Shown here piece after piece: positions 46,354 through 60,623 of a stretch of 64,000 nt of DNA. Location: positions 1 through 64,000 of the forward strand of contig JAJEJA010000047.1 of assembly GCA_022828145.1 (NCBI GenBank). The letters run 5' to 3'. The position numbers and the translations under genes are program-made. How positions within the stretch are numbered: position 1 is the first letter of the stretch; each line of letters begins with the position of its first letter. Under the pieces are notes generated by a model that had not been told where the DNA came from, searched no databases, and saw only the letters and a list, made by a program, of their open reading frames with translations. The stretch comes from Candidatus Poribacteria bacterium. GTDB lineage: Bacteria > Poribacteria > WGA-4E > WGA-3G.

Positions 46354-47457
46354 TCACTCTACTTGAACGACGACTTCTCCTAATACGCTCATATCTGGTG
46401 TGATTCCCAATCCCGGTTGTGTGGACGCAGCCATTCTCCCGTTCACTCTTTGGGGTGCCCCTTCAGCAGTGCTGACGGTGACATAACTATTGAAATCGGT
46501 TGCTGTGAATAAGAATTCTGTGGGGGTGCTATGTGCAAGATGTGCGATTGCAGCGGTTGTTATATCGCCTCCCCAACTATCCTCAATCGTCATCGCTATA
46601 CCGAGTTCAACGCACAAGTCTCTTGCGAGTTTTGCTCTGGTGAGTCCCCCAAATTTACTGATCTTTATGTTGACAACATCCATGGCGCGGTCAGCATGAC
46701 CACGTAATAAGACGTGTATACTATCAATTGTCTCATCAAGTATAAATGGGTGATCTGTGCGTTCACGGATAGCAAGGCATTCCTGATATGATAGACACGG
46801 TTGTTCAATGTATACATCTACGCTACTTACACCTCTGACGACGCGGGTTGCTTGATGCATCAACCAACCAGTATTTGCATCTGCGATGAGAACATCCCCA
46901 GGTTCCATCAGTTCGGAGACAGCGTGAATCCGTTCTATATCGGTATCTGGGTCTCCACCGACTTTCAACTGGAATTTGCGATATCCTTCGGCACGGTAAG
47001 CAGCAACCTTTTCCGCCATCTCTTCGGGAGATTGTTGAGAGATTGCGCGATATAACATAAAATCATCTCCATATCTCCCTCCGAGTAACGTGCAAACGGA
47101 TGTGTTTGATATTTTGCCAAGTATATCCCAACACGCTATGTCTATACCTGATTTTATGTATGGATGTCCTTTGAGCGCGACATCCATGAATTGATTGAGA
47201 GGTAGCAACTGTGTTGGGTCTTTACCGATAAGGTGTGGTGCAAGTTCGGTGATACCCGTGCGGACACCTTTTGCATAAGCGGGAAGATAGAAGGGGCCCA
47301 ACGGACATACCTCCCCGTAACCCGTTATGCCTTCATCTGTTTCAACAGCGATGATTGTGCTATCAAAGACTGAAACGGATTTTCCGCCAGACCAATTATA
47401 GCTGCCTTCGTGGAGTGGTAGATCAACTTTATATGCTTTAATACTGCGAATTTTCAC
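46354..47457 (-). CDS. Mandelate racemase/muconate lactonizing enzyme family protein
   Basis: Enolase-superfamily enzyme, 367 residues. Metal ligands appear in LIADANTGW (Asp), YIEQPC (Glu) and ILDETID (Asp/Glu). The first active-site strand reads FQLKVGG, with the second Lys of the KxK kept and the first replaced by Gln. The opposite side has [11 protein letters not shown] (Lys). This pattern fits MLE-subgroup dehydratases or epimerases. It starts with GTG 7 bases after GGAG and ends 6 bases before the ornithine cyclodeaminase-like gene, so they form a catabolic pair. Confidence 0.9.
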
Positions 47458-49789: not shown

Positions 49790-50440
49790 ATGAAAATAAT
49801 CCACGGAAATCCATCTCACAGAGAACGATGTCCATTTAATATCGTTCCGAATGAACCGCTCTCCGCAGAAACATCTATAGATCAGTGTGTCTCTTGTGTG
49901 TGTCGCAACAACGCATACCTGAAGAGTCACTACGAAGATTTACAACAGATCGCTTTTTTGACCATTCTTGAAGAAACACCTAACTATAACCCAAACCATC
50001 CAAGCGGTGCGAGTTTCATTACCTTTATCAAGGCAAAGGTCTGTATACGCTTATGGCGCGAGCAAAGGAAACTATTGCAAGAGACACCTTTTCCGTATCA
50101 AGAATGCTCTGAAAATGAGAAGAATAATCCGTTAGAAGCAGAATTGCTCACACAAGCGTGTGCTATTGAGGATATGGCAGACAGTGTGATACAGCAAATT
50201 GAAGTCGATTTTTTACGAAAGTGTTTACCCAAACTCATTGAAAAACTTACCGAAAAAGAAAAACGGGTCATTCAAATGAAGTTCTTTAAGGAACATACCG
50301 GCGTGCAAATTGCAAAAGAACTCAACATATCCGAGGGACGTGTAACACAACTCACACAGAAAGCATTGGCAAAACTTGGTAAAGCATATCTCACGACACT
50401 CAAATGTAAGCAAGGAAACCCATATAGAGTAACGGAATAA
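49790..50440 (+). CDS. Sigma-70 family RNA polymerase sigma factor with N-terminal Cys cluster
   Basis: A 216-residue small sigma factor. Region 2 is seen in HYEDLQQIAFLTILEETPNY and the WREQR stretch; region 4 in LTEKEKRVIQMKFF, then TGVQIAKELNISEGRVTQLTQKAL, an HTH with the GRVTQL recognition helix. The first 45 residues are unusual and carry Cys residues in HRERCPFN and DQCVSCVCRNN, which might bind a metal or sense redox. No anti-sigma gene is adjacent. Start preceded by GGGGGTGAATCGGG. Regulon unknown; convergent with the selenoprotein genes. Confidence 0.88.
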   Translation: MKIIHGNPSHRERCPFNIVPNEPLSAETSIDQCVSCVCRNNAYLKSHYEDLQQIAFLTILEETPNYNPNHPSGASFITFIKAKVCIRLWREQRKLLQETPFPYQECSENEKNNPLEAELLTQACAIEDMADSVIQQIEVDFLRKCLPKLIEKLTEKEKRVIQMKFFKEHTGVQIAKELNISEGRVTQLTQKALAKLGKAYLTTLKCKQGNPYRVTE

Positions 50441-50578: not shown

Positions 50579-52165
50579 CTAAGTTTTGCTCTGTTTTACT
50601 GATATTATAGCGAGAAATGCATTGACATTCCCTTTTCCGCTGAACCAGGTACCGGTTGCACCAAGTTTAAAGACCTGTCCTCTGTCAAAATGATAACGGA
50701 TTGTTCCTTGGAGCCCCGAGGGGACATCCCAAACCCCAGCAACTGCTTCAGTAGGGATACCTTTGGTCGGCAGTTCTGTATTTTCATCAAATAGATCAAA
50801 CGAACCCCCCGATTTAGCATTTCCCATCTGTATTTCAATTACAAGTTCACCGCCTCCCTTTATTTGCGTAGTATCAATTTCAATGACATTATAATCTTGG
50901 TAGCCGTAACTTGGCGCACGAAGTATATCTAAGACTCTCTGTTCAAGCTGCCCATTTTTGAGAACGACTTTTGATACTGTCAGGAAAGGGTCTGTTGTGT
51001 TTTCATTGAAACCGGGGAATTTTGAATCTAAAGCATTGGTAAGAAAGGTCATATAACCGTCAACTTCAGGAATACGCTTTTTGTAGCAGTCATCAAAAAA
51101 ATCGTTGAGTGGTAGTTTTCCCATCACATCATATTCTGGTGCAATGACTAAGCAATCTACGGGTGAATCTTCTGTCCAACCCTCCATGATTGCTTGTGCA
51201 AGAGGATGCGTTTTATTGAAGACATCCGATTCGCTCTTAGGTCTCTTTGCCATGTATGCTTTCTTACGCGGGGTACGTTCTAATGCGACATTGGACACCC
51301 AAATGTTGATAAAGTTCTCATTCAAGAATTTGATCACTTGATCATCAGAGAGGACACCTGCCCTCAAACCTTTACCACTCCCTCAGCAAGCCTCATCTGC
51401 TAATGGTCCGTCAACGGAGATGACATGAATGAGTTTGCTCTGTTTTTCAGCCAGTTCAACGGATTGCTCAGGTCCTACCCAGTTGATCTGTTCCGATTTG
51501 TAAAACTGTCTGTTTAAGATTCGGGTTGCTTCGTCTTCGGTGATGTGTATTACATATTGGATGTCTTGAATATCCTCTTGTGTCCCTGCATGCAATTCCA
51601 TTCGCTGGATTAGACCTGCGTCTGTAATAGAATAAGGCGCGTCTTTGTCCTGTTTCCAATTCACATCAAAATTGACAGTGCCTTCTGGGACAGACATCTT
51701 GAAGAAAGCGATCTCTTCTTCAAGTCTGTCAATGATAAGATTCCCGATAAACTTGGATGGTGTGAACCATCCATCTGTGAGTTTATATTCTACATGGATA
51801 CGGAATTGTATATCAGCATATCTCTGATTACAAGCACGCAAACATGCCCACAAACCTTGGGAATCACCAGAGTCAAGGTGCATATCCAAATTTGGATTGG
51901 GATGTAATTGTTGGAACAACTTAATCACGCCGGTTTTTTCAATCTCCCAGCATTCACCGACTGAGACCGATTCTATCGGTATGAAAGCGTGAAATACAGA
52001 TAGCGGGTGGTTCTTTTCCGGTTCTGCGACGCGGAGATTTGCTAACGCCTCCCACTCTACATGGAAATTTGAGAGTGTATGTTCAATCGGTTTGATGTAT
52101 CCTTTCACAGATATGGTTTTAGCACCATCAATGAAAAGCGTGATCCTGTCTAATACTGTATTCAT
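50579..52165 (-). CDS. Selenoprotein 1: N-terminal novel domain plus Sec-containing thioredoxin-like domain
   Basis: One frame of 528 codons with a single in-frame TGA at 51383-51385 (codon 261) inside DEAC-U-GSGKGLRAGVLSD. The second half has no credible start of its own, and the frame continues without a shift. A SECIS-like hairpin follows (51350-51365). Residues about 1-255 form an unrecognised domain (SVGECWEIEK, WACLRAC). From 260 on, ACUGSGK, VIKFLNENFINIWV and GSPVDCLVIAPEYDVMG suit a thioredoxin fold whose active site is Cys-Sec; a beta-rich C-terminal domain ends in KGNVNAFLAIISV. The start overlaps the stop of selenoprotein 2 (ATGA), so they are coupled. SelA/B/C/D are not in the window. 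Confidence 0.85.
51350..51365 (-). promoter_or_regulatory. Bacterial SECIS hairpin of selenoprotein 1
   Basis: Beginning 18 bases after the TGA, the mRNA reads GAGGGC-AGGU-GUCCUC, a 6-bp stem (one G-U pair) with an AGGU loop. The GG of the loop falls 25-26 bases after the TGA, within the range of known bSECIS elements, and the loop resembles the GCAGGUCUGC loop of the fdhF SECIS. The stem also codes for LRAGVLS. Confidence 0.8.
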
Positions 52166-53379
52166 TCAATTTCCTTTACTGAAATGTTTAAAACCTGTTG
52201 CGAAGGTTGTTCAGGTGTGATGATGATGTTTGCCAATCCTAGTCGTTTTCCTGCTACAGATTCTTTGAGAAAGTATATATAAGCATCTACTTCGTCCTCA
52301 AACTCACCCAAACATTCAGGGAAATAATTATAGTCTATACTGCCCAGGACTTCAAACTCATGTGAGATAACCATACAATCAACGGGTGAGCCTTTCTTCC
52401 AACCTTTCATAATGGCTTTTGCAAGAGCGTGAGATGAGTCAAAAGTCATTCCTTCCCGTATGCGTCGTTTTGCAATCGGTTCTCGTAGACGCTGTGTCCG
52501 TCCTAATTCCGCGTTTGTGACCCACGTGTTGACAAAGTTATTGTTCAAGAATTCTATGATTTCATCATCGGAGAGTTCACCTGACCTCAGGCATTTGCCA
52601 GTCCCTCAGCATGACTCATCAAAGAGTGGTCCATCTACCGAAATGACGTGAATCGGTTTCTGTTGTGCGGGTGCTATCTCCAAGGCTTCCTCCAGTGATA
52701 CCCAGTCAATTCTCTGAAACTCATAGAAACACGATACGAGTGCGCGTTTGGCTTCTTCTTGCGTTATTGCTTTAATGAATTTGACATCCTGAGATGTTGT
52801 GTCAGTATAGATTTCCATTTGAGGACAATACCCTATTGCTGCAGCTGTGTGTTCATCCTCCTGTGTCCAACCAATGTCAAAGTTTAGTGTCGTTTGGGGA
52901 ACATGCAATTTGAAGGAGACAATTTTCTCCTGTAGTCGGTCAATCATCAGGTGTCCTGCAAATTGTGATGGTGTCAACCAACCACTGTTCAGGACGAATT
53001 GTCCATGTATTCGGAATAGAATCTCAACGTATTCTTCATTGTAAGCGCGCAAACATGCCCACATAGCACGACTCGGATCACCTGAATTTATGTGCAATTT
53101 CAGTTGTGGACAGGGAGAAAGCTGGCGCAGTAACGTTAAAGCACCTTCCTTCTGAATTTGCCAGCATTCACCAACTGAAACGGGTTCTGATGGCAGAAAA
53201 GATTGAAATACAGAAGCAGGATATTGCTTTTCTGGATGTGCAACCCGTATGTTCGCTAATTCGTCCCACTCTACATAGAAGTCTGATGAGTCGTATTCAA
53301 ATGGTGCAATGTAACCTTTGACAGATACTTCTGTGTCATCACTGAGTTGGATTGTAATTTTGTCGGACAATGTATGCAT
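52162..53379 (-). CDS. Selenoprotein 2: shorter paralog with Cys-Sec motif
   Basis: A single frame of 405 codons broken only by a TGA at 52606-52608 (codon 258) in DESC-U-GTGKCLRSGELSD. The N-terminal domain matches selenoprotein 1 (FxPxEPVSVGECWQI, MWACLRAYN). The thioredoxin-like half keeps EFLNNNFVNTWVTN and GSPVDCMVISHEFEVLG. It stops at about the point where the others enter their C-terminal beta-rich domain, so that domain is missing. A further Cys replaces Gly in GKC. AGGAG precedes the ATG, and the stop overlaps the selenoprotein 1 start. It lies 47 bases after the small exported protein gene, in the BlaR1 operon direction. Confidence 0.83.
52573..52588 (-). promoter_or_regulatory. 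Bacterial SECIS hairpin of selenoprotein 2
   Basis: Same distance from the TGA as the other two (18 bases). The RNA reads GAGGUC-AGGU-GAACUC: the pairs are kept except for one G-A mismatch, and the fifth pair changes from G-U to U-A, which looks like compensation. The AGGU loop is identical to that of the other copies. Confidence 0.75.
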
Positions 53380-53425
53380 TTCAACTCCTACGCCGTCATT
53401 CTAATCTATGATGATTGAATTGACT

Positions 53426-53938
53426 TTATTCGACATTTTCTAAATAGAGTTGCTGAAATTTTGAAACGACTCTGTTCGTCATTTTTTCTAAGTCTTTTTT
53501 TGAAAATAGATGCAAACCTGTATGTGATTTTTCAATCAATTTACTTGTTAGATTGTCTACGCGGTCCCAAATGGATGTTGCAATATCTGGTTTTAAAACG
53601 CTATTATCAAAGTAATCTATGTACTGCACACATGCAGCTATGTTACCTGTTTTCTGTTTGTTTTCACCTGCTCTTGCTTCTACAAGAACGAGTGATACTA
53701 CGTAAGATAAATCTGATTCGTACTCATAGACGATATCCACATTTTCGATTTTATTAAATGCCTCAAATAAGTATATTTTTACAGAGGACACAAGGTCGGT
53801 TTCCCCAGCAATATCAAGCAGAATTTTGATTTTCTTTGTTTCTTTAGAAGTTTCTTTTACGGGTATGCCTTCAATTGAGATTGTTATGAAACAGATGATT
53901 AAACTAACAACAAGAAATAGCATCAGTATTCGTTTCAT
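53426..53938 (-). CDS. Exported hypothetical protein in the BlaR1 operon
   Basis: About 170 residues from the ATG at 53938, which follows AAAGGAATC. A hydrophobic signal segment (MKRILMLFLVVSLIICFIT) is followed by a soluble domain with IKILLDIAGETDLVSSVKIYL, VDIVYEYESDLSYVVSLVLVEARAG and FSKKDLEKMTNRVV. No family recognised. It lies 45 bases after the BlaR1-TlpA gene and 47 before selenoprotein 2, so it is very likely part of the same transcript. A regulatory or redox partner role is a guess. Confidence 0.65.
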   Translation of the reverse strand: MKRILMLFLVVSLIICFITISIEGIPVKETSKETKKIKILLDIAGETDLVSSVKIYLFEAFNKIENVDIVYEYESDLSYVVSLVLVEARAGENKQKTGNIAACVQYIDYFDNSVLKPDIATSIWDRVDNLTSKLIEKSHTGLHLFSKKDLEKMTNRVVSKFQQLYLENVE

Positions 53939-53982
53939 AATGATTCCTTTTGTGAATTTAGTTGTTTTCAAATTCACTATGA

Positions 53983-56394
53983 CTATTGATTTTCGTTTTT
54001 CTGTTTAAGTAGTTCTACTATGTGTTCTTCTAACTGCTTACTTCTGTCATTGCGACTTATTAATCTACCATCTTTCGCTATGAGCCAGGAGGTAGGTATG
54101 CCGTTAATATGGTACTTTTTTACAAGTGGACTATTCCATTTTTCCCCGTTGTATATCTGATGCCAGTGAATATCATTCGCGTTAAGGTAATTACGTAGTC
54201 TGGTTTCATCTGTGTCGAGACTAACACCGATAATTTCAAGACCTTTATCTTGATAAGTATTGTAGATTCTTTTTATATTCGGCATTTCAGCGATGCAAGG
54301 ACGACTCCAAACTGCCCAAAAATACAGTAGCACAACTTTACCTCTATATTGATGGAGAGAGATGACTTTTCCATTAAGATCTTTTGTAGAAAAATCGGGT
54401 ACAATCTTACCTACCATATCTACCATAGGATCGGTTTTCTTCCGATATTCGTCTGCCTGTTCTGCATTACCAAGTTCCTGGTGGATTTCAGCAAGTCTGT
54501 TTAAAACGATGTAACTCTTGGGATACCGCTTCTCAAGTTTTTGAAAAAGTTGAAGTATTTTCTGGTGCTGATTTGCAGTTTCCAACATCTGAGACAGAAA
54601 CAGATGGTCATCAATGTCAGCCGGATTTACCGTCGATGCATAACGACTTATAAGTTCCTCAGCATCTTTGTCTCGTCCGACTTCAATATAAAGTCGAAGG
54701 AGTGTAAGATAGATGTAGTTGAAGGTACCATATTCTGGTAGTTTTTGAATGCCTGCTTCAAGTGCTGCGATTGTATCTTCAATAGAGTCATACATATCTT
54801 CAGGTGTTTTTTGCCACATCCCTGGTGAAGTATATATTTTGAAAGAGAAACCTAAGTTGATACATTCAAAAGATTGATCTGTATGATGTCGACAACGAGC
54901 AAGTGGAATTACATCTCCATAAATCTTCTGGTTTTCAAGCGTTGTAAATTGCAATTCTGGATGAAACTGATAACCGTAACTTACTGGCATCTTTGGGTCA
55001 GTGTTCGTATAATAAATCGGTTTGCCGCCTATTTTATCTGATGGACATAGTAGGATATTTGGGGCATCTATGTAGTTTGGATAAAGGTCTGAAAGCCAGT
55101 TCGGAAATCTACCATTTTCTTTTTGATAGGCTTGGATTGCTTTTCCAATCGTCTCCAGGTTATGCTTACAGATTTCAATGTTTCGCTGCTTCTGGATTTC
55201 ATTCGTGTCTCCTTCCTCAACAGCAGGTCTTGGCGGGAACAATTCAGGTGTTGATTGTAAACCGGAATTGCCTTGAAGTGCTTGATAGATTGGTTCTTCA
55301 GCGTTATCTGCTTTCGTCAATCGCATGACACTAATTGTCATGGCAGAACAGATAAGAATTAGCATTCCGATGCCAACGGTAACCTTCTTCAATGGGTAAC
55401 GATTTAAGTTATCAGACAGAATGGTTCTGAGTCGTCCTTCAATTTTTGAAGTGCTTGCCATTGTTACTGCTCCCTGTGAAAATGCAGCAACGGACTTTAC
55501 ATTTCTAACGATAGCAAGGAGATGTTGAGCATAAGCTGTTGATTGATAGCCTGAGTTTAGCACTTGATCATCACAGGCTTGCTCTGCCTCCATCCTCATA
55601 CGATGTGATGCAAACCATACAAATGGATTAAACCAATAGAATGCACATGTAATTCGTGCAATCGTCTGCATCAACCAATCCCAACGTTTGATATGTGCAG
55701 TTTCGTGAAGGATGATTGCTTGTAAACGTTCGGAATCCCAAGTGACTGCATCATTTGGTAGTAGAATCACAGGCCGTATAAAACCCCATACCATTGGAAT
55801 AGCAATTCTATTAGTAAGTCGTAACCTGACCTGATGATTCAATGTAGGTGGTAATTGATATATGGACGCATCAAAATCATCAGCGCGGATAGAGAAATAC
55901 CAGATAACACAAACTCCAATCAACAACCGGGTAAGAAAAAAACCGCTAACACACCACCATACTATACCTATCCAAGTTGTCCAACGGAACGTTTGAAATA
56001 CATTCTTGGTGTCATCTACCATCTCAGGTTGATTTTGGGTTGGTGTGATGTCAATTGGCGTAACTGATTCAGTAGATGTCTGGATCAAGTCAGCTGTGAT
56101 ATGTGTAGCCAATGGTTGATCGGCTTCTGCTGACAAATCTGTGTCATTTCCAACGATTGTTTGTGGTAAGACCCTTATTTCCCATTTTGGAAATATAGCG
56201 GAAAAGAGTGGAATGGTCAGAAATCCAATAATAGTCATACGCCAGACGAAACTCCGAATTGCTGCAGACTTTCGCCGTAAGAAAAATACAAATATACTAC
56301 CAAGAAGAAAAACAATAGAACTCTTTATTGAAATGTCAACAAGGAATCTTAGAAATTGGCTATCATATATTGTCTCGATAATTTGCATCATCAC
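53983..56394 (-). CDS. BlaR1-type M56 metalloprotease receptor fused to TPR and TlpA-like thioredoxin domain
   Basis: 803 residues. The first 350 form a BlaR1/MecR1-type membrane protease: several transmembrane segments, the zinc motif LHETAHIKRWDW (about residue 228) and the downstream EAEQACDDQVL. A further transmembrane segment follows near 355. Then comes a GspG-like module (NLETIGKAIQAYQKENGRFPNWLSDL, about 410-500), TPR-like helices, and a TlpA/thioredoxin domain at the end (GKIVPDFSTKDLNGKVI, then GIPTSWLIAKDG). The redox site is WSRPC, so the first Cys of WCxxC is Ser. The sensor part normally binds beta-lactams; here no penicillin-binding domain is present. GTG or ATG starts overlap the blaI stop. 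Confidence 0.88.
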   Translation of the reverse strand: MMMQIIETIYDSQFLRFLVDISIKSSIVFLLGSIFVFFLRRKSAAIRSFVWRMTIIGFLTIPLFSAIFPKWEIRVLPQTIVGNDTDLSAEADQPLATHITADLIQTSTESVTPIDITPTQNQPEMVDDTKNVFQTFRWTTWIGIVWWCVSGFFLTRLLIGVCVIWYFSIRADDFDASIYQLPPTLNHQVRLRLTNRIAIPMVWGFIRPVILLPNDAVTWDSERLQAIILHETAHIKRWDWLMQTIARITCAFYWFNPFVWFASHRMRMEAEQACDDQVLNSGYQSTAYAQHLLAIVRNVKSVAAFSQGAVTMASTSKIEGRLRTILSDNLNRYPLKKVTVGIGMLILICSAMTISVMRLTKADNAEEPIYQALQGNSGLQSTPELFPPRPAVEEGDTNEIQKQRNIEICKHNLETIGKAIQAYQKENGRFPNWLSDLYPNYIDAPNILLCPSDKIGGKPIYYTNTDPKMPVSYGYQFHPELQFTTLENQKIYGDVIPLARCRHHTDQSFECINLGFSFKIYTSPGMWQKTPEDMYDSIEDTIAALEAGIQKLPEYGTFNYIYLTLLRLYIEVGRDKDAEELISRYASTVNPADIDDHLFLSQMLETANQHQKILQLFQKLEKRYPKSYIVLNRLAEIHQELGNAEQADEYRKKTDPMVDMVGKIVPDFSTKDLNGKVISLHQYRGKVVLLYFWAVWSRPCIAEMPNIKRIYNTYQDKGLEIIGVSLDTDETRLRNYLNANDIHWHQIYNGEKWNSPLVKKYHINGIPTSWLIAKDGRLISRNDRSKQLEEHIVELLKQKNENQ

Positions 56395-56777
56395 AAGGTG
56401 TCTCCCTTTTTCGCATTTTCAATGAGTTGACTTAAACGGTCAAGTTCTTCATCAGATATGTCTACATCGGAAATCAAGGTCATGACCGTTTTCTCTATTG
56501 ATTTATCAAAAAACGTGTGAAAGATCTGTTTAAGCGCGAGAAGTCCTGCTTGCTGGCGTGGTTCAGTAGGTCGGTAGATATACCGTTTGCCATCTTTCTC
56601 ATGTGTTAGATGACCTTTTTCTTCTAAAATCCGCAGCAGTGCGCGAACCGTAGAGTAACTCGGTTCGTCCGGTAAGTCTTCAAGAACATCTGCAACTGAT
56701 ACCTGTCCGCGTTGATAAACAATATCCATTAGTTGCCGTTCTCTACGACTTAGTTTTGCTCCATGAAATTCTTCCAT
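56391..56777 (-). CDS. blaI: BlaI/MecI-type transcriptional repressor
   Basis: 128 residues of the penicillinase repressor family. The N-terminal winged helix contains LSRRERQLMDIVYQRGQVSVADVLEDL and EPSYSTVRALLRILEEKGHL, and the C-terminal dimerisation and cleavage region includes FFDKSIEKTVMTLI. BlaR1-type proteases inactivate such repressors by cutting this region. It overlaps the downstream BlaR1-like gene by 4 bases. Two palindromic operators lie at 56800-56858 around the promoter, so it should repress its own operon. The ATG follows GAGAGAA. Confidence 0.93.
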   Translation of the reverse strand: MEEFHGAKLSRRERQLMDIVYQRGQVSVADVLEDLPDEPSYSTVRALLRILEEKGHLTHEKDGKRYIYRPTEPRQQAGLLALKQIFHTFFDKSIEKTVMTLISDVDISDEELDRLSQLIENAKKGDTL

Positions 56778-56799
56778 GATATTCTCTCTTTTATTGAAA

Positions 56800-56858
56800 T
56801 GCTAATATTTTAGCACATAAAAAGACGTTTGTCAAGAAAAAATGCTAAAAATTTAGCA
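56800..56858 (-). promoter_or_regulatory. blaI operon promoter with two BlaI-type operators
   Basis: On the minus strand TTGACA (56830-56835) and TAAAAT (56807-56812) are 17 bases apart. Two palindromes of the form TGCTAA-N4-TTAGCA lie at 56800-56815, covering the -10 box, and at 56843-56858, just upstream of the -35 box. Their centres are 43 bases apart. This is the classic layout of a self-repressing promoter; BlaI or MecI operators in other bacteria are similar AT-rich palindromes. Confidence 0.8.
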
Positions 56859-56905
56859 TTAAAGTGTCTTTTAAAAGAGGCAAGACAGTTTGGGGTTTTC
56901 TAAAT

Positions 56906-58429
56906 TTAGTTTTCCGCTACAGATATGCTTGCCTTAAAAGCATTCGTGTTGCCTTTCTCATTACTAAAGTTACAACCTGTGGCACCAAACTTAAACAACT
57001 GTCCTCGTGCAAAAGTATATTCAAGTTGCGTAGCTTCCTCGGGTTCCAGCCATGCCCTTGCGAGTACCATGTCTTTGGTCACAAATTCTGTTGTAGGGAG
57101 GTCGTCGTCTTCATCAACCAAATAGAAGTATCCTTCTGCATCAGATCTTCCAGTTTCTATTTCAATCGTTAACGTGCCACCATTTTCAAACGCTGTCGCA
57201 TCAATGACAATCACGGTGAAATCAGCATAACCAGTAACAGGTGTTTTAAAAACATCTAAGACAATATGTGAAGGTTTTTCTTTGCTCAGGACAATATTAC
57301 CTAATCCAGGTTCTTTACCTGCTAATGCATTCTTGAGAAATTTGTAATATGCCTTTTCTTGATTAATCCCTCTTTCGAGTTTATGGATCTGTTGCTTACC
57401 CATTAACTCAAATTCGGGTGAAATGACAAAACTATCTACAGGTGATCCTTTTTTTGAACCGGTTTTCCATCCCTTAATAATCGCTTGTGCTAATGGGTTT
57501 GTTGTGTCAAAAGATTTTCCTTCGCTTTTATATCTATTGGCAATTGGTTCTTTTAGACTGTAGCTTCGTCCTAAGTCAGCGTTGAATACCCAGGTGTTAA
57601 TGAAATGTGCATTCAATAATTCAATAATGCTGTTTTTTGAGAGGACACCTGCCCTCAAGCCTTTTCCACTCGCTCAGCAGGCTTCGTCTGTAAGCGGTCC
57701 ATCTATTGAAACGGCGTGAATAGGTTTTTGTTCTATAGGTGCTTTTTCCAAAGCCTCTTCCAGCGACACCCAGTTAATCTGCATAGCATTGTAAAAACGT
57801 AGTATCAATGCACGTTCAACATCTTCTTGGCTGATGGACTCTGTATATTCAACATGAGAAGGTTTTGTACCAGCATTCAGTTCGATTTGAGGACAATACC
57901 CAATATCGGTACCAACATCATCCCAGTTGACATCAAAGTTTAGTGTCCCTTGCGGAACGTGCATGTGAAAATACATGACATTTTCGGTGATGCGGTTAAT
58001 GATAAGATTCCCCGCGAACTGTGCGGGAGTGAACCAACCTTTTTCTAACCTGAACTCTGCATGAATACGAAACGTTATATCTGCGAAATTGTCGTTGTAT
58101 GCCCGAAGACATGCCCACAAACCGAGAGAATCTCCGTTATTGATGTGCATTTTCAAGTTTGGGTTCGTATTCAGCTGACTTATTAGTTCAAGAACAGTGT
58201 CCTGTATCTTCCAACAATCTCCTACTGATACAGGTTCTGAGGGTAGGAATGCTTTAAAAGTTGGTGTAGGATGTCGTTTTTCAGTTTCAGCAACTTTTAG
58301 GTTTGCTAATTCGTCCCATTCTTGATGGAAGTTGTACTGTGTGTATTCAATTGGTGCGATGTGCCCTTTGACGGAAACATTGACATCTGCATTAAGATTG
58401 AGTTCGATTTTGTTTGCCTGTGAATCCAT
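56906..58429 (-). CDS. Selenoprotein 3: paralog with Cys-Sec motif
   Basis: One frame of 507 codons with a TGA at 57674-57676 (codon 252) in DEAC-U-ASGKGLRAGVLS. The N-terminal domain has YTQYNFHQEWDELANLKVAE, PSEPVSVGDCWKIQ and LWACLRAYND, as in the other two. The second half has LLNAHFINTWVFN, GSPVDSFVISPEFELMG and a C-terminal beta-rich domain ending GNTNAFKASISVAEN. CTGGAGAAAATT precedes the ATG. The gene ends about 130 bases upstream of the blaI start, so it is a separate unit next to the blaI operon. Confidence 0.84.
57641..57656 (-). promoter_or_regulatory. Bacterial SECIS hairpin of selenoprotein 3
   Basis: Starting 18 bases after the TGA: GAGGGC-AGGU-GUCCUC, identical in stem and loop to selenoprotein 1 although the bases before it differ in places. 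Same spacing in all three genes. Confidence 0.78.
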
Positions 58430-58455: not shown

Positions 58456-58908
58456 CTATACTCTTTTTTGGATGCAGTTTGCTAACTGTTTTTTAACACG
58501 CATGTTGCGTACAGCGAAGGCAACCGCCTCAGCAATTTGTCGATTCAACGGTCCTGTAATTGTTTGTGCATCAATCTGTCCAGAGGCGCGGTCTGTACCA
58601 CGGTAACAGGTTGCAGAGATGCAGGCATTGGGAAGCCACTGTTCTGGCGAAAGACTACATAACAGTAACCCCGCTACAGTAGCGTGTGTTATGCCGTTTT
58701 CGTCTTTTATTAATAGTCCCATCTTTTCCAGTGCCAATTCAGGATCAGTAGCACCTTCGGCACTTAACAGAGGTTTCCATAGGGATTCATCCAATGATCC
58801 AAACCCTGTGCCTGGAATCGGTTGTTTATCAAACCAGAGAAAGCGTGACTGCCCGCGTTTCTGTGCAAAGCGTATTTGACGTCTGATTTCTTCATCACTA
58901 AATTTCAT
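58456..58908 (-). pseudogene. Fragment of a COG2865-type (AlbA_2/RecG-like) regulator
   Basis: 150 residues from the middle of these proteins: EEIRRQIRFAQKRGQSRFLWFD, then THATVAGLLLCSLSPEQWLP and TITGPLNRQIAEAVAFAVRNM. The N-terminal AlbA_2 domain and the C-terminal HATPase-like part are both missing, and the frame ends in an unrelated tail (KKQLANCIQKRV). I judge it a remnant, though a short product could be made. It starts 7 bases after the DUF4276 stop. Confidence 0.65.
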
Positions 58909-58915
58909 CTGTATC

Positions 58916-59416
58916 TCAATGTCTGATCGTCTGTATCAATAAATGTTCTAATGCTTCGGACGTGCCGCCCTGGATTGCGTCTGGATTCCTATATTTTGTC
59001 TTAGATTGGAGATTTATTGGGATTCTTGGATAAACCGTGTGCATCGCTTCAACATCTCCAAAAAACCATGCCTCTAATTCTTCAATTGCTATTCGATTGA
59101 CGACTTGAAAATCTTCATCTGGAGCCGCGTTGGATTTTGTTACGAAACCCGCTTCGTGCGCGGCTTTTTCTAAATTTGCTTTCAGTTCGTGACAGTCTTT
59201 CCGATCTTCATCAATAAGCACGATAATTCGCCAGTCGTTAGGTATCCATTGGCGATATGTTTTCAATCGCTCTGGTAACTTTTTAAGCAGATCCTCTTTG
59301 CCTTTAAATACATGAAAGTCGAAACTGACATTGTCTGAAAGAATTCTTGGTAAGATAGCTCTTAATGCCGCCTCTGCGGAAGGTTCCTCCAAGAGGAAGT
59401 CAATGTGCACGGACAC
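58916..59416 (-). CDS. DUF4276 TOPRIM-like protein, probably C-terminally truncated
   Basis: 166 residues; the usual length is about 200-220. The TOPRIM-like acidic pattern is visible: FLLEEPSAEAALRAIL (Glu) and RIIVLIDEDRKDC (DxD), then NRIAIEELEAWFFGD. The frame stops soon after DAIQGGTSEALEHLL, where complete members continue for about 40 residues, so it may be inactive. It overlaps the AAA ATPase gene by 17 bases. ATPase plus TOPRIM pairs are known from OLD, Gabija-like and PARIS-like phage defence, so a damaged defence module is likely. Confidence 0.72.
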   Translation of the reverse strand: MSVHIDFLLEEPSAEAALRAILPRILSDNVSFDFHVFKGKEDLLKKLPERLKTYRQWIPNDWRIIVLIDEDRKDCHELKANLEKAAHEAGFVTKSNAAPDEDFQVVNRIAIEELEAWFFGDVEAMHTVYPRIPINLQSKTKYRNPDAIQGGTSEALEHLLIQTIRH

Positions 59417-60623
59417 CTCGCTTTGGACCGCCCGTATTGGTCAGCGGATCACCAAATTCAAAGAACCCTTCCATCCAGAGTTCTCCTAACTTCGCCTCAC
59501 TTTCCATAAATTCTTTGATTCCTAACATCTCTGATGCGCGTTTGCAGACTGTGAAACCTTGCTCATCCCGATATAATACCCACACCTCCTCAGCACGAAG
59601 TTCATTGACAAAACGGGGTGAATGCGTGGTAATTATGAATTGAGAGCACATTAACGCCTCAATGCACGCCCCGACTAAACCTGTCAGCAGACGTGGGTGC
59701 AGGTAGTTCTCGGGCTCTTCAATGCCGATCAATTGTGGCGGTTTTGGATCATGAAATAGCGTCAGGTAGGACAGTAGCATCATCGTGCCATCGGAGGTAA
59801 ACTTTGCCAAGATAGGTTGTTCAAAAGGGGTATCTTTTATTTTCAGCAAACGCCTTCCATCCATTATTAGTTCTGTGTTGACCTTTTCTAAGCGAGGTAC
59901 CTGATTTGACAGAGAAGAGATTATTTTTTCCAAACGTTCTGGATATCTTTCCTGAAGATATTGGATAACATTTGGCAAGTTGTCACCTGTTGGGGATAAT
60001 CTTTTTTGTGGTCCATCATGCGTTACTTGGCGCGTGGCATCGATGGAAAGAGAGGACAGGTGCCAATCTGCAATAAAACGGCGAAGGGCACTGACGCGGG
60101 GATGTCTTGTTAACTGCCCAAACATGTTAACAGCGAGTGTCGCCGAATCATCAAGTCGTTCATCAATTCGTGTACCCCCCTTATCAGGTATTTCACCACC
60201 GATGATGCTGCCTACTCCTTGATGAAAATCGAGGAAGCGGATATGTTTTCCCCGGCTACTGAGACGCCATTGCAGCCATTCGGTTTCAACAATGGGACCA
60301 TCCGCATTTTCATTGATAGAAAGATGGTAGGTGATAACTGGTGTTTTAGGTTTCTCTCTATATTTCAACTCAAACTCAATCGGTCCATCACAGCCTCGTG
60401 TTCGCAGTTCCATTAGTCCTCCTCTCTTGTTACATGCTTGACGTAACCCGATTGTGAAACATTCAAAGAGGAACGCAAAGACATCAAATAGTGTTGATTT
60501 ACCACTACCGTTTGCACCTAAAAAGACAGTTAGCGGTTTGAGTTGTTTTAACTCTACATTCCGCAGCGCGCGGTAGTTTTTAATACGCAATGACTCAATG
60601 TGTGGAACAGTTTGATGAGGCAC
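59400..60623 (-). CDS. AAA family ATPase (OLD/AAA_21 type)
   Basis: 407 residues of an ABC/SMC-like ATPase: Walker A FLGANGSGKST (about residue 34), Walker B LIGIEEPENYLHP and the H-loop TTHSPRFVNEL. The region between is family-specific and the C-terminus has no TOPRIM of its own; that part is supplied by the overlapping downstream DUF4276 protein. Probably the sensor or motor of a two-gene defence system. The start is supported by a glutamine-histidine-rich N-terminus typical of such genes (MPHQTVPHIESLRIKNYRAL). Confidence 0.88.
   Translation of the reverse strand: MPHQTVPHIESLRIKNYRALRNVELKQLKPLTVFLGANGSGKSTLFDVFAFLFECFTIGLRQACNKRGGLMELRTRGCDGPIEFELKYREKPKTPVITYHLSINENADGPIVETEWLQWRLSSRGKHIRFLDFHQGVGSIIGGEIPDKGGTRIDERLDDSATLAVNMFGQLTRHPRVSALRRFIADWHLSSLSIDATRQVTHDGPQKRLSPTGDNLPNVIQYLQERYPERLEKIISSLSNQVPRLEKVNTELIMDGRRLLKIKDTPFEQPILAKFTSDGTMMLLSYLTLFHDPKPPQLIGIEEPENYLHPRLLTGLVGACIEALMCSQFIITTHSPRFVNELRAEEVWVLYRDEQGFTVCKRASEMLGIKEFMESEAKLGELWMEGFFEFGDPLTNTGGPKRGVRAH

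Follow-up and report, generated by a model that had tools for sequence, protein, structure and literature searches.

Introduction

In mammalian thioredoxin reductases, the motif GCUG (U = selenocysteine, Sec) lies in the C-terminal tail of a flavoenzyme and forms a selenenylsulfide, and DUF255 proteins have CxxC as their active-site pattern. Selenoprotein N (SELENON) of eukaryotes uses a Sec insertion sequence (SECIS) in the 3' untranslated region. Here we describe three bacterial genes, numbered 1 to 3, in a 64,000-nucleotide stretch of Candidatus Poribacteria bacterium (assembly GCA_022828145.1, contig JAJEJA010000047.1, positions 1 to 64,000; hereafter the window). We consider it highly probable that they belong to a large Poribacteria family matching the core of SELENON, that a TGA codon in each is likely read as Sec, and that the product is a thioredoxin-fold enzyme, predicted to reduce protein disulfides through a Cys-Sec pair.

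Published accounts of SELENON describe an EF-hand and a Sec residue in the motif SCUG (PMC8584023), place SCUG in a thioredoxin domain, with C427 and U428 (PMC7474598), and give Sec462 and Arg466 for the long isoform (PMC12839072). In the sources consulted, the protein is placed in animals, to which an algal study adds algae, and a study of calcium stores counts the SelN EF-hand among metazoan accretions. SELENON is absent from a 2026 catalogue of 119 prokaryotic selenoprotein families and subfamilies, as judged from its Table 1 and a word search, and our literature search, with partial coverage of that literature, found no bacterial SELENON.

Results

Each of the three genes contains exactly one in-frame TGA, directly after a conserved Cys. 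The original prediction, made from the letters of the window, had described a single TGA breaking an otherwise open frame in three paralogues, at 51383, 52606 and 57674, and had taken TGA to be an ordinary stop elsewhere. The codons are where it put them, and of 15 genes examined (the selenoprotein genes and their surroundings) 8 end in TGA, gene 2 among them. Only four TGAs in the window lie at least 200 codons past the previous stop and at least 120 before the next: the three Sec codons and an ordinary stop at 46356 between two unrelated genes. The three proteins are 48–53% identical in pairwise comparisons, and a Shine-Dalgarno-like stretch precedes the ATG of all three genes. The prediction's word "tandem" suits genes 2 and 3, since the TGA stop of gene 2 overlaps the ATG of gene 3 (ATGA, a 4-nucleotide overlap), but not gene 1, which is 3.5 kb upstream of gene 2 and separated from it by three other genes. 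A fourth family copy in the same genome (G000:C36:21853-22845) also has one TGA. Ratios of nonsynonymous to synonymous substitution rates (dN/dS) are similarly low on both sides of the codon, at 0.13 before and 0.12 after TGA for gene 3 and its closest relative, L110, and 0.10–0.30 before and 0.10–0.19 after for six other close pairs.

Homology to SELENON gives the family a name, which the original prediction had left blank. No Pfam or NCBIfam family matched at cut-off among the members scanned (50 + 11 for Pfam, 5 + 11 for NCBIfam), and the similarity was noticed from the motif of a divergent subfamily, WGALDDESC-U-ANGK. Two family profiles built without SELENON, A2 and A3, match human SELENON with 158.5 bits (E = 1.4e-44) and 187.9 bits (E = 1.4e-53), respectively, at a database size of 1e6, and match none of 2000 shuffled decoys. 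Single-sequence BLASTP against the human protein, at a database size of 1e9, yields E-values of 2.0e-24 for gene 3, 1.1e-31 for gene 2, 1.0e-28 for gene 1 and 9e-45 for the fourth copy, with 24–31% identity for the window copies. Both the N-terminal domain and the thioredoxin domain are matched, in the same order (for example FRIHAEF...PAQF...NVD), and Sec is set on Sec. Human Cys243 corresponds to bacterial Cys108, which is kept in 49 of 50 aligned sequences, and the counterpart of SCUG reads SC-U-G in gene 2, AC-U-G in gene 3 and AC-U-A in gene 1. The EF-hand was not among the Pfam matches of the 50 + 11 members, and the alignments begin at human residues 118–221, past D80. As judged by these profile and BLASTP matches, the family is homologous to eukaryotic SELENON.

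The TGA is conserved across the phylum. A family profile, A1, has at least 551 matches at E <= 1e-10, fragments included, in 64 of 84 Poribacteria genomes, with up to 19 per genome. To count codons at the Sec column, all stops were read through at every available locus, in segments of 123 nucleotides, and 157 duplicates and 4 gapped rows were excluded. Among the resulting 259 unique copies, the column holds TGA in 254, GGA in 2, GGC in 2 and TCA in 1, with TAA or TAG in none, and Cys directly precedes it in all 259. Such conservation of the column excludes a chance origin of the in-frame TGA. Consistent with this, 51 of 52 single-copy matches tested, drawn from 75 named Poribacteria loci, contain a single TGA and neither TAA nor TAG; the remaining one is a badly framed match.

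In protein databases, many copies are cut at the TGA, so that they end in DEAC or DESC or begin with MRAG. Entries of full length carry Gly, Thr or Trp at the Sec column and form a biased sample, because TGA copies cannot show up full length. The original prediction had proposed looking for homologues with Cys at this position, and one turned up: P0136, with DESC-C-GTGK, is the sole Cys case seen, as a protein entry whose underlying DNA was not seen. Its four full-length matches in the phylum, 85–86% identical, have TGA at the column. Sec thus seems to have been lost several times, mostly not to Cys.

Individual members depart from the common pattern. At the DNA level, L020, L022, L025, L027 and L118 have Gly or Ser in place of Sec, and the database proteins P0005–P0020 and P0135 have Gly, Thr or Trp. 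One further entry, P0021 (541 amino acids), is an open frame running from just after one Sec position to the next, and joins the C-terminal half of one SELENON copy to the N-terminal domain of the next copy, a layout suggestive of a double-Sec fusion protein.

A predicted hairpin follows the TGA at codons +6 to +11, with sequences like GAGGGC-AGGU-GUCCUC. The published model of the bacterial SECIS (bSECIS) calls for a stem of 4–16 base pairs, a loop of 3–9 nucleotides with an early G, and a spacing of 16–37 nucleotides (PMC13188914, section 5), and the family hairpins fit it with a 6-base-pair stem, a loop that is mostly A-G-[G/U]-U and a spacing of 23 nucleotides. We compared 238 TGA copies with synonymous shuffles that follow family codon usage. 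All six stem pairs form in 202 of the 238 copies versus 3.7% of shuffles, and the mean folding energy is -12.7 kcal/mol versus -9.6. The loops are AGGT in 147 copies, AGTT in 75, GGGT in 12, ACGT in 3 and AGGC in 1. At stem pair 23-32, both sides have changed (GC to AU) in 25 of 228 distinct sequences, and the pair is open in about 14%. Synonymous codon bias is found at most positions from +1 to +12, strongly so at the majority of these; at +7, for example, Arg is encoded by AGG in 87% of cases versus 13% in overall family codon use. For gene 2 an alternative hairpin is also predicted.

The genome that contains the window (5.06 Mb, 123 contigs) encodes selA, selB, tRNA-Sec and a Sec-type selD. 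The original prediction would have been undermined by a lack of selC and selB together with homologues that stop at this position; both genes are present, and they are adjacent, the tRNA-Sec (75.7 bits, above the Rfam cut-off) lying 113 nucleotides after the selB match. The selD gene (L018, G000:C75:22875-23801) itself has one in-frame TGA, in the context KCAG-U-ASK, as in Sec-type SelD. Across the phylum, selA occurs in 56 of the 64 genomes with the family and selB in four of the other eight; the last four, with neither gene, are 73–83% complete. Together, TGA conservation, the bSECIS hairpin, the Sec machinery and the one Cys homologue back the prediction that these are selenoprotein genes with a conserved Cys-Sec pair.

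In the predicted structure, a thioredoxin-like domain holds Cys-Sec in its active-site loop, and with the fold matches this bears out the earlier proposal that the pair sits where such a fold has CxxC. Residues 225–386 of gene 3 share their fold with Thioredox_DsbH (DUF255) and DsbD-gamma-like thioredoxin proteins, and Pfam DUF255 matches weakly (3 of 50 members, best E = 0.006; 1 of 11 members, E = 0.19). Unlike Thioredox_DsbH, however, the bacterial family has Cys-Sec followed by GSGK and no CxxC, the TGA copies listed reading C-U-[GA]-[STND]-G-[KR]. The GCUG of mammalian thioredoxin reductase is alike in its vicinal Cys-Sec followed by Gly, whereas here the pair lies inside the thioredoxin-like domain. 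The catalogued CU-motif selenoproteins (KCU-star, SaoL, HgcA, SaoC, SaoB, MbdU and CopZ form 2) also have vicinal Cys-Sec, but no NCBIfam model reached cut-off for the 5 + 11 family members scanned. SELENON of animals and some algae is closest, sharing the N-terminal domain, the thioredoxin domain with Cys-Sec, Sec on Sec, and a basic residue after GSG (Arg466 in humans, Lys or Arg in bacteria). In contrast to SELENON, the bacterial family has a bSECIS beside the TGA, many paralogues and no endoplasmic reticulum, no EF-hand was found in it, and it has an optional C-terminal beta-sandwich or sigma-factor fusion.

The variants differ in their attachments. The beta-sandwich is present in some copies only. 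No signal peptide is evident in the window copies; signal-peptide-like starts are seen by eye in P0005–P0007 and P0009–P0015, and 15 of 223 copies pass a strict screen for a hydrophobic start. In a small subgroup, an extracytoplasmic function (ECF) sigma factor, a membrane segment predicted by eye and the SELENON domain are fused; the full-length fusion was found in 4 of the 84 genomes, with one TGA each. Proteins P0136 and P0247 and loci L185–L188 represent this architecture. Many other long open frames in Poribacteria genomes contain the same sigma module but no SELENON domain.

Table 1. Positions in the window of the three genes, their Sec codons, predicted hairpins and domains.
Feature	Position	Strand	Remarks
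SELENON-like selenoprotein gene 1	56906..58429	minus	507 amino acids on readthrough, Sec252
SELENON-like selenoprotein gene 2	52162..53379	minus	405 amino acids on readthrough, Sec258; without C-terminal beta-sandwich
SELENON-like selenoprotein gene 3	50579..52165	minus	528 amino acids on readthrough, Sec261
Gene 1 TGA (Sec codon)	57674..57676	minus	context DEAC-U-ASGKGLR
Gene 2 TGA (Sec codon)	52606..52608	minus	context DESC-U-GTGKCLR
Gene 3 TGA (Sec codon)	51383..51385	minus	context DEAC-U-GSGKGLR
Gene 1 predicted bSECIS hairpin	57641..57656	minus	6/6 stem pairs, loop AGGT; pairs counted by hand
Gene 2 predicted bSECIS hairpin	52573..52588	minus	5/6 stem pairs (one G-A mismatch), loop AGGT; pairs counted by hand
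Gene 3 predicted bSECIS hairpin	51350..51365	minus	6/6 stem pairs, loop AGGT; pairs counted by hand
Thioredoxin-like domain with Cys260-Sec261	51008..51493	minus	gene 3 residues 225-386; predicted structure and fold matches
C-terminal beta-sandwich, collagen-binding / pre-peptidase C-terminal-like fold	50594..50989	minus	gene 3 residues 393-524

No constant gene neighbour of the family was found across the loci compared. The genes between gene 1 and gene 2 encode a 183-amino-acid protein, a BlaR1-like peptidase of the M56 type that is fused to TPR and a TlpA-like thioredoxin domain and, adjoining it, a BlaI-like repressor (peptidase and repressor at 53983–56394 and 56391–56777). Of 73 other loci, 2 have a BlaR1-like/BlaI-like pair near the family. 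Convergent with gene 3, on the plus strand at 49790–50440, is a gene for a sigma-70-type factor; just 1 of the 73 other loci has a weak relative of it near the family. On the other side, three genes at 58456–60623 appear from their sequences to resemble an AAA ATPase and two small partners.

Discussion

Of the alternatives, the most serious retains the selenoprotein family and assigns Cys-Sec to peroxide reduction or metal binding instead of disulfide reduction. CU-motif selenoproteins in the 2026 catalogue do include the metal- or organometal-handling CopZ form 2, SaoL, HgcA and MbdU, but the thioredoxin-like fold is of the DsbD-gamma / Thioredox_DsbH type and SELENON is described as a reductase (PMC7474598); we regard this alternative as unlikely. 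We give hardly any credence to a true stop at TGA, with two polypeptides or a restart at TTG, GTG or ATG just after it. That scenario would suit the many database copies split at the codon, and the G-rich codons past it could by chance serve as a ribosome site. It does not suit the lack of TAA and TAG with stops read through, the full-length homologues with Gly, Trp or Cys, the SECIS-like hairpin or an alignment to SELENON that runs straight through Sec. Insertion of Trp, Gly, Cys or another standard residue at the TGA seems just as implausible: Gly and Trp do occupy the column in some homologues, but the genome has a dedicated tRNA-Sec and SelB, the hairpin is present, the column aligns on SELENON Sec428, and TGA stops translation elsewhere. 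Finally, the genes could form a new thioredoxin-like selenoprotein family that has only converged on SELENON around the motif, as the low identity of the window copies and the failure to find an EF-hand might suggest. A match that covers the N-terminal and thioredoxin domains in order, well beyond the motif, makes this very improbable.

Several observations nevertheless weigh against our preferred interpretation, a SELENON-like selenoprotein family with a disulfide-reducing Cys-Sec pair. The human query, SELENON isoform 2, was a typed-in sequence and not a database record; it agrees with the published positions C49, D80, C108, C243, C427 and U428 (PMC7474598) and has a basic residue four after Sec, as Arg466 requires. 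Because selA is also present in 15 of 20 phylum genomes without the family, the machinery counts for little by itself. As 56% of synonymous shuffles likewise satisfy the generic bSECIS rule, the argument for the hairpin depends on the fixed-stem and codon tests; the copies behind them are not independent by descent, and codon bias, mostly absent outside +1 to +12, has isolated exceptions at -25, -10, -2, +15, +34 and +39. Five non-TGA copies still have six stem pairs, with the loop G lost or altered in two of the five, as is expected of recent Sec losses, and this is not a clean test of decay. Some relatives have Gly (GGA or GGC), Ser, Thr or Trp at the column, and Sec is therefore not indispensable in every copy. 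Reductase activity, lastly, is carried over by analogy from work on SEPN1.

Considering how such a protein might be made and work, we propose that SelB with Sec-tRNA would bind the hairpin, whose first base lies in codon +6 counted from the TGA, leading to Sec insertion. Cys and Sec would then lie in the loop before the first helix of the thioredoxin-like domain, with Sec standing where CxxC has its first Cys and the preceding Cys as the resolving partner, forming a selenenylsulfide. By analogy with SELENON, this site may reduce target disulfides, and the N-terminal domain common to both could bind partners. Copies without a signal peptide, such as those in the window, would act in the cytoplasm, and those with one in the periplasm or outside, while the sigma-factor fusions might sense redox state across the membrane.

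What is new here is that a family known from eukaryotes occurs in bacteria, where no EF-hand was found and new fusions exist; the splitting of database copies at TGA may explain why it was missed. SELENON loss causes an inherited human muscle disease. SELENON was the first selenoprotein linked to a human disease (PMC8584023). According to its authors in 2020, it was hard to purify, being membrane-bound and containing Sec, and its structure was unsolved (PMC7474598). It should probably be possible to produce soluble bacterial homologues, with their bacterial SECIS, in E. coli, which would help in solving a structure and in testing the role of the Cys-Sec site directly.

Because SELENON has been placed in animals and algae and left out of the prokaryotic catalogue, a large bacterial family bears on its origin. 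Many Poribacteria are sponge symbionts. Our proposal on this point is distinctly more tentative than our reading of the genes: SELENON may be of bacterial origin. Its core, made up of the N-terminal domain and the Cys-Sec thioredoxin domain, would have arisen and diversified in Poribacteria; early animals or other eukaryotes would have received this core from them and supplied the calcium-sensing EF-hand. Within Poribacteria, it would have become a major selenoprotein family with cytoplasmic, exported and sigma-fused transmembrane forms, and some copies may be redox sensors that switch genes on.

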